In this document: positions 707 through 19,279 of the stretch, in pieces
Numbering within the stretch: the stretch's first letter is position 1
Layout of the letters: the number at the start of each line of letters is the position of its first letter
Made by a program: the position numbers and the translations under genes
Origin: Rhizomucor pusillus
Lineage: Eukaryota; Mucoromycota; Mucoromycetes; Mucorales; Lichtheimiaceae
Direction of reading: 5' to 3'
Assembly (NCBI GenBank): GCA_900175165.2
Contig: FWWN02000668.1
Span: 155,188-219,187 of the forward strand
DNA: 64,000 bases
Notes under the pieces: generated by a model
What the model was told of the DNA's origin: nothing
What the model saw: only the letters and a program-made list of their open reading frames with translations
Database searches by the model: none

Positions 707-2621
707 TCTGGCTTTTCAGCTACGGATGGATAAGTATACTGTAAGCGACAAGTTGAAAGAAGCAAGACGTTTGCTTGCAGTGTATGTTCCAAATAAAAGA
801 AAAAGTACTCAAGAAAAAACAGGTCCGTCTGTTATCAATAAATGTATGAAAAAAAAAGAAAAAAGAAAAAAAGAAAGAGAGAAAGAGGAAAGAACGGGAG
901 CGATCATATCCAGGGTGTTTAGGGGTGAAGCTTTTGATATTTAGAGGCGAAGATGATGCTCTTCTTAGGGATCGATTTAAAATGCAGAGCTCTTTTATGC
1001 GTGAACCTATAGCCTTTAATAATCTAGATATACAACAGTCATCAAGAGAGGACACGATGCCGGCAGGAGTTCTAAAAAACAACCTGCACCAGACCTTGCG
1101 GAGCTCTGCTGATACTTTTATGCGTCGATATCTCCGCTTTCCATGCCTGGGCCGTGTATAACCGGAGGTCAGTTCCCATGACCTTTGCTGGTGCCCACAT
1201 CGACAGAGGAGAAGATAATATAGAATGGACGGCTACTAGCAAAGATGAGCAAAATCAGGGTCGTATATGTATTGGCGTACTAACTGGAGATTTATTGTCT
1301 GCTTAATTATCGATGGAACTGCAACTCGTTGAGATGCCGATATTTAGTGCTAGCATTGCAGCGCTGCTACAGAAAAGGAATTATGTATACGCCATATGCC
1401 TCTACCGGTTCTCCGGCACATTCACGCTTTACAGTTTCATCATGTTTAAATAGGGAAAACACTCCTGACAGGCTGTGTAATAAGATTTTGCTCCCGATGC
1501 ACGATACGTATAATATTAGCTTGCGCCGCTGATGGAACGCCGACAGAGACGTCTCGATTTTATAGCGGGGTAGATCTCTGGATGCCCATCTCGGTCTTTA
1601 CGTACCCATTTCTTTCTTCCGAGTTTTAATAACTAATGTGTTTCATTATCTTATTCATTTCAATCGCTTATTCCATTAACAAAATCATATACATTTAGGG
1701 CACTATGAATCCATTTCTCTAACTTCTTCATATACTCTGTATGGTGACGAGTGTGACATAGCAGTAGAGAGTGGTATGTCCGATAATGGACAAAGACAGT
1801 AAATACTGCGAAGCTCCTGTAAGGTTCTATATTAGGTCACCACAGCTTTATATACTTCTATCAGATCGGTAATGACAAAAATCCGTTTCATTCTCTTCTT
1901 TCTCTTTTACAACCTTAGATGCCACACCCTGTATGCAAAAAGAGCTATTTAGAGCAAAGACTCCACTGAATAGCTATCAAAAATACCATAATCTGTATAC
2001 AGAACGAATCCTCTACCTCCTGACGAATCGAATCACGCTAAAATTAGGATAGGATGCGAAGCGTTTTTTTGCGAAACAAATGATCCCGTTGCTGAAGGTT
2101 GTTTGGCAAGCAAAATCGACAATGGGAAGCGGATGTCACTACGTTGGAGGAGGATGATACGGAGGTTGTTTACGCCGCCAATAAAAGTCAAGGTCAATTG
2201 CTTCCGCCGTGCATGTCTGTATTGCTGCACCAAAGAAAATTAACAGCTCGGGAGGCCAGCTTATCAAAATAAAATTGTTAGTCTTTTCAATGCTTACGAT
2301 ACCCACGGTGTATGTTATCATATCATTGGTTTGCTGATGCTATTTATTCTCAAGACCATTTCCACTTGTTTCGTATGTAAAACTAAAAATGACTATAGCC
2401 CCTTTATTAGAAGGTAGCATATTGTACGTTAACAGAAGTATTGATGCATTGTTGAATGAGAATTTGGTTTGTTACTTCGATGTCCGTTAGATAACCTAGT
2501 ATTGTAATTGGCGCAAAGGCGAAATAAATTAAGTCTACTTTTTCATCTCGCTGACTACAATGGTCACTGGTCCAAGAGCAGTATAGCTGATCAGTTTGGG
2601 AGTACCGCATCAATCTGACTG

Positions 2622-3771: not shown

Positions 3772-4446
3772 AATGCGTTGTAGCACTCCCAAGCTGGTTC
3801 ACTATTCATCACCGTTTAATAGCTCTCACTGACCATTGTCGTCATTGAGATGAAAAGACAGACTCCATTTATCATCAGTATTAAACTCTATTTCACGCAT
3901 CAAAAAGCCAAATTCTTAAATTGTGACGTTATGGAGAAATAACCGGAAATGACAGCAATATTTGGACTAGTGTATGCAGATCTGCAAACGTATGGATCAA
4001 GTAGATTGGGCTGCTTATACTTCTTGCGCAGCATGTAATAATTACAAGTTGCCTGACTTGGCTGCATGCAGAAAACCCGACAAATGAGGGGAACGCACAA
4101 CTGTTATGTAAGATTATCTTTGTCGATGGATACAGCAACGAGTTGATTAACATTTCGTTGCTGTTGAGGAGTAATAGTGGATATACGTAATCTGAGTCTA
4201 TACAGCAACAACAAGCAGACGATCCAACGAGATAAAATGGAAGGGGGAAGGGGTAGGGTGGAGACCATTATTGTTGCAGACAATTGCGCTCATGATCGGT
4301 GTTGAGTATTTGCGACCGCCAAGCCAAAGGGAAATTAGAGCATGTATATTTTTGGTGTCAAGAACCCTGCATATGGATTGCATCAGCCTCGTACTCCTCT
4401 TCACCTCAGACGTGTGTAGGAGGTGCAGTGTATACGCAATTTTTAT

Positions 4447-4490
4447 GGGGCTAAAAGGGCTAAAGGGGCTAAAGGGGTTCAAGGGGTTCA
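4447..4490 (+). repeat. Short G-rich 9-bp tandem repeat
   Basis: About five units of a GGGCTAAAG / GGGTTCAAG type 9-mer in a row. It reads as Gly-Leu-Lys / Gly-Phe-Lys in one plus-strand frame, but no gene is supported around it. Confidence 0.75.
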
Positions 4491-4718
4491 GTCTGGGAGA
4501 TGCTGCTGAAGAGAACGTGCAGTCTGGAGTTTGCGACATTGAAGGTAGTAGCCACCGAACTCCGTAATATGCTCGTAACTGAACGAGAGTGTATGTGTGA
4601 GAAAGAGAGAGAGAGAGATAAGGCTCTCATTTTATTTATTCTTTTTTTCATTTTAGCAGTAATAATAGTAATATGGATAGTAAGAGGCGGGATGTTGTAA
4701 TTTTTTTGAACAGCAATG

Positions 4719-16094: not shown

Positions 16095-16679
16095 TCAGAT
16101 CATCAGCGAGCGCTGCAGATCTTTGCGACGAACTTCCCATTCACGTTCAATTTCGCCATCGATGTCTTGGAAAACATTGCCGAGCTGGGCACGGACTGTA
16201 TGTGCAAGATCCAGCTGTTGTCGGGGTGGTATCGGTTTTTCTTCTGGTACGATAATATCAGGAGAAGAAAAAGAAGGAGGAGATCTGCTGTTGGTATTGA
16301 CGGGAGGTGATGGCGGGGGTGATGGTAATTTGGCATCGACTGCTATTTCAGTTTTCTCTTCTTCCTCGAGAACTTGAGGTGGTCTTTCTGGAACGAGTCT
16401 TATCGGGGATGTAGATGAAAAAAAGGAGGAGAGGCGGCGGCGCATGCTGCTGCGTGGAGAAGAAGAGGCGCTGGTAGGTGAAGGAGAAGACGACGATGAC
16501 AGTGAAGTCATGGAAACACCTGCAATGGATAATCGACCTGGCTTATTAGCTCTGTCCTTTTGGGCTGTAGGAGGAGGTGCTCGGCTGGGCATGCCAAACC
16601 ATCGTCGAGCAGAGCCATCTGATGAAGTTAGCATTGATATCGAGGCCCGTTTCTCGGCGGATGTTTTGTAGAACGACAT
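16095..16679 (-). CDS. Small Ser/Pro-rich protein of unknown function
   Basis: A single-exon frame of 194 residues starting at 16679 (MSFYKTSAEKRAS). The frame is open further upstream, but that part encodes only a Ser/Leu run from the (AG)n repeat at 16691-16733, so the internal Met is the better start. The middle is rich in Ser and Pro with many basic residues. The last 40 residues are more ordered and probably helical (ARTV-like HTVRAQLGNVFQDIDGE, then EREWEVRRKDLQRSL). No catalytic motif or membrane segment is visible and no family is recognised. It lies about 900 bp downstream of the THI5 riboswitch on the same strand. I do not think the riboswitch controls it, because a poly(A) signal intervenes. 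Confidence 0.6.
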   Translation of the reverse strand: MSFYKTSAEKRASISMLTSSDGSARRWFGMPSRAPPPTAQKDRANKPGRLSIAGVSMTSLSSSSSPSPTSASSSPRSSMRRRLSSFFSSTSPIRLVPERPPQVLEEEEKTEIAVDAKLPSPPPSPPVNTNSRSPPSFSSPDIIVPEEKPIPPRQQLDLAHTVRAQLGNVFQDIDGEIEREWEVRRKDLQRSLMI

Positions 16680-17563: not shown

Positions 17564-17569
17564 TTTATT
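17564..17569 (-). terminator. Poly(A) signal AATAAA for THI5
   Basis: AATAAA on the minus strand lies about 260 nt past the THI5 stop and only 30 nt beyond the 3' end of the TPP aptamer. It is the first canonical hexamer after the stop codon. Its position next to the aptamer argues that the aptamer belongs to the THI5 transcript rather than to a downstream leader. Confidence 0.6.
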
Positions 17570-17598
17570 CAAAGCGATGAAAACAAAGCGGTTCATTC

Positions 17599-17680
17599 CC
17601 TTCCCTTCGCAGGAATTACCCTGATCAGGTTATGAGAGTATTTCTCAGCCCAGCACCGAAAGTGTCGAGCACCCCTAGGG
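17599..17680 (-). promoter_or_regulatory. TPP (THI-box) riboswitch aptamer, 3' of THI5
   Basis: Read on the minus strand, all conserved parts of the thiamine pyrophosphate aptamer are present in order. They are GGGGTGC (P2, 17677-17671), a P3 hairpin closed by a TTTCG loop, the pyrimidine-binding CTGAGA (about 17647-17642), and the P4/P5 diphosphate-binding arm: ACCTGATC, GGGTAAT, CCTGCG, then AAGGGAAG. The match to the bacterial/plant/fungal consensus is nearly position for position, so identity is not in doubt. It lies about 150 nt after the THI5 stop and shares its strand. Known fungal examples sit in 5'-UTR introns of NMT1/THI4-type genes; a 3' position is known from plant THIC. An alternative is a leader element of the gene ending at 16095, but its ATG is 920 nt away past a poly(A) signal. 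Confidence 0.95.
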
Positions 17681-17699
17681 ATGACCACTTGCATTTCAC

Positions 17700-17816
17700 C
17701 TAAATGTGGATGAAATAAGGGAAATAAAATGGAATGGGATCGGCAAGATCCCGTCCAACCCGGTTTCTTTGGTTAGCAGACTGCAAACAATGCAACTTGA
17801 TTGAAAATTACATTAC
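17700..17816 (-). other. Candidate 3'-UTR intron of THI5
   Basis: A good 5' splice site (CAAG|GTAATG, GT at 17816-17815) begins 12 nt after the stop codon. A 3' splice site (CACATTTAG, ending at 17700) closes a 117-nt intron just 5' of the aptamer. A nearer TTTGCAG at 17781 would give only 36 nt and is probably too short. A distal acceptor beyond the poly(A) signal near 17490 would instead remove the whole aptamer. Splicing is inferred from sequence alone. Confidence 0.45.
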
Positions 17817-17828
17817 CTTGACACTGGC

Positions 17829-18911
17829 TTAGGCGTGGACAGCGGTAGAGCGGCAGGAGCTGCAGTAACCAGGTACGACACCGGTGTCGACGGTGGTTGG
17901 CTCAATACCGGGAGTAGACTCGGGCAGCATCTCCCAGGTCAAAAACTCGTTGGTCATGTTCTGAACGAAGTCCTGCTTGATAATACCGAGACGTTTGCAG
18001 TAGTTGGTGACCTTGTCCCAGTCGCGCTGAACGTTCTTGAGATCGCGCGAGAAGTAGCGGAAGGAACGCTGGAAGATCTTGCGGTTGACGTCCGATGCCA
18101 TGATAGGCTTCATTTCACAGAATAATTCATATGCCTTGACAGGGTCCTGGAACATGACATCAGCGGCGCGCTTAACGGCCTTCATGAATGCCTTGCATTT
18201 TTCAGGATTCTCGGCCATAAACTGCTCGTTGGCAATCATGAGAATGGAACAGAAGCAGCAGCAGCCAAGCTCGGCCAACTCGTCAATGCGGAGCATGCAT
18301 ACATCGTCGCGGGAACGGCCTTGCTGGACAGACCATTCTTCAAGTTCTACCATCTGCACGTTCTCGAGACCGATACCGGCATCAATCTCGCCGCGGATGA
18401 TAGCGCCAGTAACATTCATTCCCACGCGCACGGCAGTGTAATCCTCGGGTGTCATGCCATAATAACGAGTGAGTTCGTCGAGCTGGACCTTGCCAAACTC
18501 ACCAACGTAGCCAATGCGCTTGCCCCGCAAGCTCTGAAAGTCGTTGGTGATACCGCTGCACGACTTGAGGTAGACTACGCCGGTGAAGGGCTCGTCCAGC
18601 AGCGTACCCATGGACTTGATGGGGAAACCACGCGCCTTGCCGGCAATGGTATGGATCATGGCCTTGCATCCCAAGTCGACCTTGCCCGAGCCAATGATCT
18701 CTGTCACATCGGATGGGTTGTTGGGCTCAAGAATGGCCACCTTGATGCCTTCATCCTCGAAAAACTTGAGCTTCTCAGCCAAAAAGATGGGGAGATGGTA
18801 GGGAGTCGCGTGCCTGCGCGTTGCAAAAGGCAATTAGATCAGTTGCATATCAGGATGTCACGCTAGGCAGTGTTACCAGTTCAAGAGGCAAGTAATCTTA
18901 TCAGTCGACAT
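17829..18911 (-). CDS. THI5: HMP-P synthase (THI5/NMT1 family), thiamine pyrimidine synthesis
   Basis: Makes 4-amino-5-hydroxymethyl-2-methylpyrimidine phosphate from PLP and an active-site histidine, in a single-turnover reaction needing iron, in the cytosol. Exons 18911-18877 and 18813-17829 are separated by a 63-nt intron (GTAACA...GCGCAG) that splits the Trp codon in LLNWHATPYH. The product is 339 residues, matching the family's usual 340 or so. Visible features are the fold of periplasmic-binding-protein type, Lys62 (PLP lysine) and His66 (suicide nitrogen donor) in CKAMIH, the glycine-rich GEFGKVQLDE segment, and the cysteine cluster LGCCCFCS. All key residues are intact. The first 11 codons sit on their own exon, so a start at the internal Met would lose the conserved beginning. 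A TPP aptamer lies 3' of the gene, implying product feedback. Confidence 0.97.
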
Positions 18912-19279
18912 GTTCTTTTGTTTTTTGTTAGAAAGAGATGGAAAAGGAGTGCTTTTTCACAGAAAGGTTCTCTATGCCCTTTATATAGGGTTTGGCGCGT
19001 ACTAGATCATCTTTTTTTTTCTGCTGCTGGTGCGGGAAGATTCGGACACCAAAGGTCCCATGCACTGCAGATTTTTTTTCCGGCAGCGACCTCTTTTGGA
19101 AAAGCGTATTCTTGCAATGAAATGTAATCTGGGTTCTCACTTGGTTCACACTCTGGCTGCCATCCCACAACAGCAGATAGATCATGCATTCTTTCGTTCC
19201 CACTTTCCGAAATTAGATCCACGTCTTAAAGACAAATGATCATCCGTTCTATGCTCTGCATAGTAAAACGAAGGGCATT
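18912..19279. other. THI5 promoter / PDS5 3' flank
   Basis: A 370-bp spacer between two minus-strand genes, so it contains the THI5 promoter and the PDS5 3' end. A T-rich run at 19011-19021 and a second at 19073-19079 are evident. I see no second aptamer here, so the 3' copy is the only TPP element near the gene. Confidence 0.5.

Follow-up and report, generated by a model that had tools for sequence, protein, structure and literature searches.

A TPP riboswitch aptamer on the 3' side of the THI5 gene of the fungus Rhizomucor pusillus

The fungal thiamin pyrophosphate (TPP) riboswitches that have been characterised experimentally work, in the accounts consulted here, through alternative splicing at the 5' end or in the interior of their genes. 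Types I-IV of these elements (Neurospora NMT1, THI4, NCU01977 and others) are assigned to the 5' untranslated region (UTR), to an intron of the 5' UTR or to an internal intron (Mukherjee 2018, PMC5882874). The locus described here lies in a stretch of 64,000 nucleotides (nt) of Rhizomucor pusillus DNA (contig FWWN02000668.1, positions 155,188 to 219,187 of the forward strand; "the window" in what follows), and consists of the THI5 gene followed, on the same strand, by a TPP aptamer. The aptamer is of the same class as those of types I-IV as they are described in that source, and NMT1/THI5 is among the targets of those types also; the difference is that here the aptamer follows the stop codon of a complete reading frame. 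It probably acts in cis, as a TPP riboswitch within the 3' UTR of THI5 mRNA. The genome has yielded three such elements; for that of THI5 we infer presence in the mature transcript, binding of TPP and the direction of the effect.

Placement of TPP aptamers on the 3' side is, in the literature as consulted, already known from plants, from algae and from one fungal eIF5B case; what is new here is its association with a fungal THI5 and with transporters. In plant THIC the free aptamer is reported to mask a splice donor in the 3' UTR, which TPP releases (PMC10226581), and the acceptor AG of plants and green algae is described as lying within helix P2 of the aptamer (AGGG; PMC9544697). Algal SSUA/THI5-like genes (Micromonas, Aureococcus) carry 3'-UTR TPP aptamers too (McRose 2014, PMC4260697), but those proteins are distant from THI5. 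The conclusions of PMC5882874 mention 3'-UTR cases in general; one that is named, Postia placenta eIF5B, resembles the present locus in being a fungal TPP match in a 3' UTR, but it is not a thiamin gene and its authors could not validate the aptamer by energy minimisation. The same paper also includes a Mucor NMT1 case, which may lie on either side of its gene. A group of TPP aptamers with sugar-type transporter partners in Mucoromycota (TPPsw-SUGAR) is placed "consistently" in the 5' UTR, and none of the six mentions of a UTR in that paper refers to a 3' UTR (Vargas-Junior 2024, PMC11683625). Further literature includes Donovan 2018 (PMC5997356) and a survey of structured RNAs in fungi (PMC8216456). 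A search of full-text literature, which excludes most subscription papers, brought to light no 3' TPP aptamer behind a THI5 or transporter gene of a fungus.

The THI5 gene and its aptamer

17829..18911, minus strand: THI5/NMT1 gene, encoding hydroxymethylpyrimidine phosphate (HMP-P) synthase (Pfam NMT1, PF09084, E = 3.5e-67)
17585..17686, minus strand: TPP aptamer (Rfam RF00059, 67.2 bits), located 3' of THI5
17564..17569, minus strand: AATAAA, candidate poly(A) signal; no second AATAAA, and no ATTAAA, in the scanned 432 nt that start at the THI5 stop codon
18981..18987, minus strand: TATATAA box, 70-76 bp 5' of the THI5 ATG, read from the sequence

The THI5 aptamer is a genuine, complete TPP aptamer, on the THI5 strand and 3' of the gene, and presumably binds TPP. 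The cmscan match to RF00059 runs over the full length of the model (1-105; E = 5e-11), its score to be compared with a gathering score of 54.3, and it is the only match in the window above Rfam gathering thresholds. P1 begins 144 nt past the stop codon, and about 24 nt separate the end of the aptamer core from AATAAA. A sequence-only reading of this DNA had already placed a TPP aptamer on this strand and on this side of THI5; its span, 17680-17599, is slightly short but right.

THI5 is made up of two exons (18911-18877 and 18813-17829, the latter including the stop codon) separated by a 63-nt intron (18876-18814). It provides the single PF09084 match of the whole genome, and among named sources it is most similar to Apophysomyces (83% identity), Syncephalastrum (82%) and Circinella (81%). 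Might the aptamer nevertheless lie in an internal intron, upstream of a coding exon that has been overlooked? The protein ends at a similar distance past the last conserved block as do 13 fungal homologues (a 14-row alignment in which the tail is variable), and a downstream coding exon consequently seems not to be missing; the hidden exon is rejected on that ground. The 5' side of the gene leaves little space for an aptamer: the leader is short, some tens of nt, and without one, and the TATATAA box is so near the ATG that a 5' intron carrying an aptamer would not fit.

Two transporter genes with 3' aptamers

Two more TPP aptamers accompany that of THI5 in the 24.45 Mb (353 contigs) of genome that were searched, one at locus L002 on contig C177 (55.3 bits) and one at locus L003 on contig C55 (33.5 bits). 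There are thus at least three, and the count is a lower bound because the Rfam search of the whole genome scored 49 of 725 first-look candidates. The pattern of the P4/P5 core, allowed no mismatch, picks out exactly the same three places; with 2-3 mismatches it is found at 40 places, as against 19 in the reversed control, and the 17 of these 40 that were scanned with Rfam yielded no match at E up to 1. All three aptamers sit, by genomic position, 3' of complete reading frames and on the coding strand.

The L002 aptamer (1501-1596, minus strand of its locus) exceeds the RF00059 cut-off (55.3 vs 54.3) while that of L003 (about 1401-1594, plus strand) falls below it with the standard model; the low score and the missed 5' half are apparently due to a long P3. 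The full L003 element, 192 nt in length, folds with -71.0 kcal/mol, a stability equalled by none of 300 shuffled sequences (for L002, by one of 300). An extended P1 of 10 bp is common to both. The L002 aptamer starts 21 nt past its stop codon, the L003 aptamer about 191 nt past its own.

The genes that precede these two aptamers encode paralogous transporters, both matching Sugar_tr (PF00083). They share 70-72% identity, and the match that ranks next by score is at 37%; among named sources the transporter is closest to Fennellomyces, Phascolomyces and Circinella minor (76%). The possibility of a concealed 3' coding exon was also considered for the transporters, and is rejected in view of a shared end position: 40 of the 47 homologues inspected, out of 120 listed, stop no more than 3 residues away from a common end point. 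In the nature of the partner gene, and in the long P3 of one of the two copies, these loci resemble the TPPsw-SUGAR group as PMC11683625 portrays it, but both aptamers begin 3' of the transporter stop codon. Have aptamers on the other side been missed? The coding strand lacks CTGAGA in the 1 kb 5' of the start codon of THI5 and L002 and in the corresponding 0.5 kb of L003, and a missed 5' aptamer is therefore rejected for the scanned flanks of all three genes.

Comparison of the flanks of the two transporter genes by blastn is instructive. Their 3' flanks (1197 and 877 nt) match in one half of the aptamer over 26 nt (96%), in the other half over 68 nt (93%) and nowhere else, and their 5' flanks (1000 and 500 nt) have just two 10-mers in common. 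That paralogous 3' flanks keep the aptamer alone, and 5' flanks nothing notable, speaks in favour of selection on the 3' placement. The THI5 3' flank matches both of the others in the aptamer core (43-44 nt); its sole other match (24 nt vs L002, E 0.16) is at chance level, as are those of the 5' flanks to THI5 (17 nt, E 0.12; 11 nt, E 0.21). The set of TPP aptamers in this fungus has thus apparently been kept in its 3' place by selection, to judge from sequence comparison.

Covariation was assessed in an alignment of 15 aptamers, the three from this genome and 12 bacterial ones, with counts confined to P4/P5 (that is, leaving out P1-P3). The pocket motifs, CUGAGA for the pyrimidine and GCG for the pyrophosphate, are present together with the helices in the aligned aptamers. 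In P4/P5, 96.7% of the cells are paired and 6 of 8 pairs have changed on both sides. The covariation score is unmatched by shuffles (0/500), although this control is a lenient one, the sequences being related and the structure having been drawn from the same sequences; further pair types are no more numerous than in shuffles (365/500). (A technical point: two of the bacterial rows are misaligned in CTGAGA, which lies outside the helices counted.) P4 of L002 and L003 has been rewritten (AGCGG...TCGC for ACCTG...AAGG) with compensating pairs, and differs in this from the 13 other aligned aptamers.

The occurrence of the 3' layout in all three of the aptamers found favours an under-described fungal class. 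It is conceivable, and we put it forward tentatively, that fungi of the Mucorales type, as a rule, manage thiamin through 3'-UTR TPP riboswitches, in its synthesis (THI5) as well as at a family of transporters; that these form a class of their own, arrived at separately from plant THIC, in which an intron or poly(A) choice just past the stop codon decides the fate of the mRNA; and that the published assignment of the sugar-transporter elements to the 5' UTR needs correcting. With every aptamer found in one fungus located 3' of a stop codon, such a design would be shown to have arisen, or to have survived, beyond plants and algae, and the finding bears on the published location of the Mucoromycota sugar-transporter group. 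R. pusillus might serve as a small eukaryotic system for studying the control of mRNA fate by 3'-UTR riboswitches.

How might a 3' aptamer act?

17815..17819, minus strand: candidate 5' splice donor AAG/GT (followed by AATG), 12 nt past the THI5 stop codon, with its GT at 17816-17815; score 4.5
17675..17680, minus strand: CCCTAG (CCCTAG/GGG), with its AG where P1 meets P2 in the THI5 aptamer, candidate acceptor by comparison with plants and algae
17570..17609, minus strand: possible alternative hairpin, in which the 3' strands of P4 and P1 would pair with the sequence directly 5' of AATAAA (minimum free energy fold of the ligand-free RNA)

The sequence of events that we propose is the following. 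THI5 makes the pyrimidine half of thiamin; plentiful TPP would bind to the aptamer, which would lie in the 3' portion of the nascent THI5 transcript, and lock P1; the locked P1 would alter splicing of the 3' UTR and/or formation of the 3' end; and a less stable THI5 mRNA, that is, feedback repression, would be the outcome. The switched part might be an intron starting at AAG/GTAAYG just past the stop codon, but this is a guess.

What speaks for such an intron is a pair of donor-like sites. The THI5 site (AAG/GTAATG) ranks in the top 6.75% of GTs of the window, and L002 has AAG/GTAACG 16 nt past its stop codon (score 6.4); both scores are moderate on a scale on which the training donors, when left out, range from 2.1 to 8.9 (n = 10). 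The longer sequence TCAAGGTAAYG is common to these two 3' flanks within 25 nt of the stop codon. When random pairs of 27-nt stretches are compared, 57 of 20,000 show a likeness of this order (10 of 11 positions), uncorrected for three comparisons; TCAAGGTAAYG itself occurs 42 times in the genome, vs 27 for its reversed control. On the acceptor side, about 20 nt are all that separate the AG in P2 of L002 from the donor, too little for this AG to serve; a self-trained acceptor model, built on 105 unambiguous candidate introns, had almost flat acceptor columns and was not used.

L002 also has a second and stronger donor-like site, AAG/GTGAGG, about 10 nt past the aptamer and 131 nt from the stop codon (minus strand; score 7.5, top 1.2% of GTs); two such sites therefore bracket the aptamer. 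Speculatively, a choice between them could determine whether a splice junction falls far enough past the stop codon to elicit nonsense-mediated decay, if such decay operates in this manner here.

How closely does this resemble plant THIC? By genomic position the aptamer follows the stop codon, on the coding strand, at all three loci; there is a donor-like site past the THI5 stop codon, and there is an AG at P2. The differences are that THI5 belongs to another enzyme family than THIC, that in this fungus donor and aptamer have no significant complementarity, and that the AATAAA of THI5 follows the aptamer instead of lying inside an intron before it (L002 and L003 do have one before the aptamer). 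Several results count against the proposed riboswitch or the manner of action suggested for it. Donor and aptamer pair no better than donor and shuffled aptamers do (164/500 and 93/500 as good), and donor accessibility is the same in the free and in the aptamer-constrained fold (THI5, 0.24 to 0.22; L002, 0.57 to 0.57); the 3' flank of L003 has no matching AAG/GTAAYG donor; the THI5 aptamer taken alone is not clearly beyond shuffles in the stability of its fold (30/300 as stable); and of the well-conserved 3'-UTR TPP aptamers of diatom THIC/SSSP genes, one that was tested gave no response to thiamine (PMC9544697). Masking of the donor by the aptamer is rejected, pairing and accessibility changes being not above chance. 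GTs inside or touching the THI5 aptamer do become less accessible once it has formed (0.17 to 0.05, 0.41 to 0.22), as expected. Pairing at chance level means that the plant THIC switch is not established. The sequence-only reading had offered two possibilities, an under-described fungal class or an arrival at the plant design: the layout of all three aptamers favours the class, while an arrival at the plant mechanism finds no support, for the reasons just given of pairing and of the AATAAA that comes after the aptamer.

If splicing is not the target, the aptamer could act through the choice of poly(A) site or through mRNA stability, the TPP-stabilised P1 blocking or moving cleavage at an adjacent signal. 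AATAAA is present at all three loci: it follows the THI5 core, whereas in L002 it overlaps the stop codon, just 5' of the aptamer, and in L003 it lies at +96/97, between stop codon and aptamer. The ligand-free fold of THI5 has P1 broken and contains the alternative hairpin, which ends just 5' of, and so abuts, the signal and hints at control of the 3' end; the predicted cost of forming the aptamer is 6.1 kcal/mol for THI5 and 1.7-1.8 for L002 and L003. But the hairpin (-11.2 kcal/mol) is only weakly better than chance, 20 of 500 shuffles being equally stable; the signal does not keep to one side of the aptamer; and its accessibility is predicted to be unchanged upon aptamer formation (0.35 to 0.34, 0.94 to 0.94 and 0.93 to 0.93). 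Poly(A)-site or stability control without splicing seems to us on the whole unlikely, if well worth bearing in mind; the riboswitch proposed here could itself work by way of splicing or of poly(A) control. That the aptamers are relics, or are non-regulatory, decaying or kept for some other reason, is improbable. Phaeodactylum THIC provides a precedent (PMC9544697) and, with the standard model, the L003 score stays below the Rfam cut-off, but the length of P3 appears to explain that score and the whole element is more stable than any of its shuffled counterparts; the core of the aptamer is, moreover, the sole blastn-conserved stretch of the paralogous 3' flanks, and P4 has changed through compensating pairs.

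There remains the question of which gene owns the aptamer, for it lies between THI5 and another gene on the same strand, and might serve that gene, or a separate RNA, instead of THI5. A leader of this gene, which ends at 16095, was the alternative against which the sequence-only reading had staked its claim. It has little in its favour: the ATG, at 16679, is about 900 nt beyond the aptamer, and the Ser-rich frame that it opens has no Pfam match. Nor do the other loci have a comparable neighbour. The frame 3' of the L002 aptamer is on the opposite strand, facing the aptamer, and has no Pfam match; the frame 3' of the L003 aptamer we take, from the way it reads, to be cytochrome c-like, although two pieces of it that were tried had no Pfam match. 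Three different downstream neighbours, with thiamin and transporter genes upstream (the transporters being of the type that PMC11683625 ties to TPP aptamers), disfavour ownership by the downstream gene, which we consider extremely improbable.

Bacterial relatives of THI5 have their own way of associating with the aptamer. Among the contigs of GTDB the relatives were bacterial only (13 loci, L067-L079, in Legionella, Chlamydiales, Rickettsiella, a Myxococcota metagenome-assembled genome and others), and the viral contigs searched yielded none. As in R. pusillus, a THI5 family gene and a TPP aptamer share a strand, but in 12 of the 13 loci the aptamer is upstream of the gene (about 2.4 kb upstream in L075); the remaining locus, L073, has no TPP aptamer at the cut-off. 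The 3' place is therefore not general to the THI5 family.

THI4 and a shared 14-mer

THI4 is described as a common target of fungal TPP riboswitches (PMC5882874). R. pusillus has one convincing THI4 locus (L016, C14:119500-125500) and five weaker matches to the THI4 profile elsewhere (22.7-26.9 bits). The 6 kb around THI4, in which 159 of 6001 bases are N, hold no TPP aptamer at E up to 10 with Rfam or at E up to 5 with model R1, and an aptamer at THI4 was accordingly discarded as a candidate. The 159 Ns form one run (4354-4512 of the locus), 5' of THI4 and beside poly-A/T stretches.

The 14-mer TGTCCGAATCTTCC occurs three times in the genome: before THI5 (window position 19045, minus strand), in the P3 arm of the L003 aptamer (L005, position 4847, plus strand) and at position 1965, minus strand, of L080. 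It was considered as a regulatory motif, but the third copy lies inside a coding frame with an ATP-grasp_2 match and the case is consequently not clear. By rough estimate a random 14-mer would be expected about 0.2 times, as against the three occurrences found; the reversed control gave 0.
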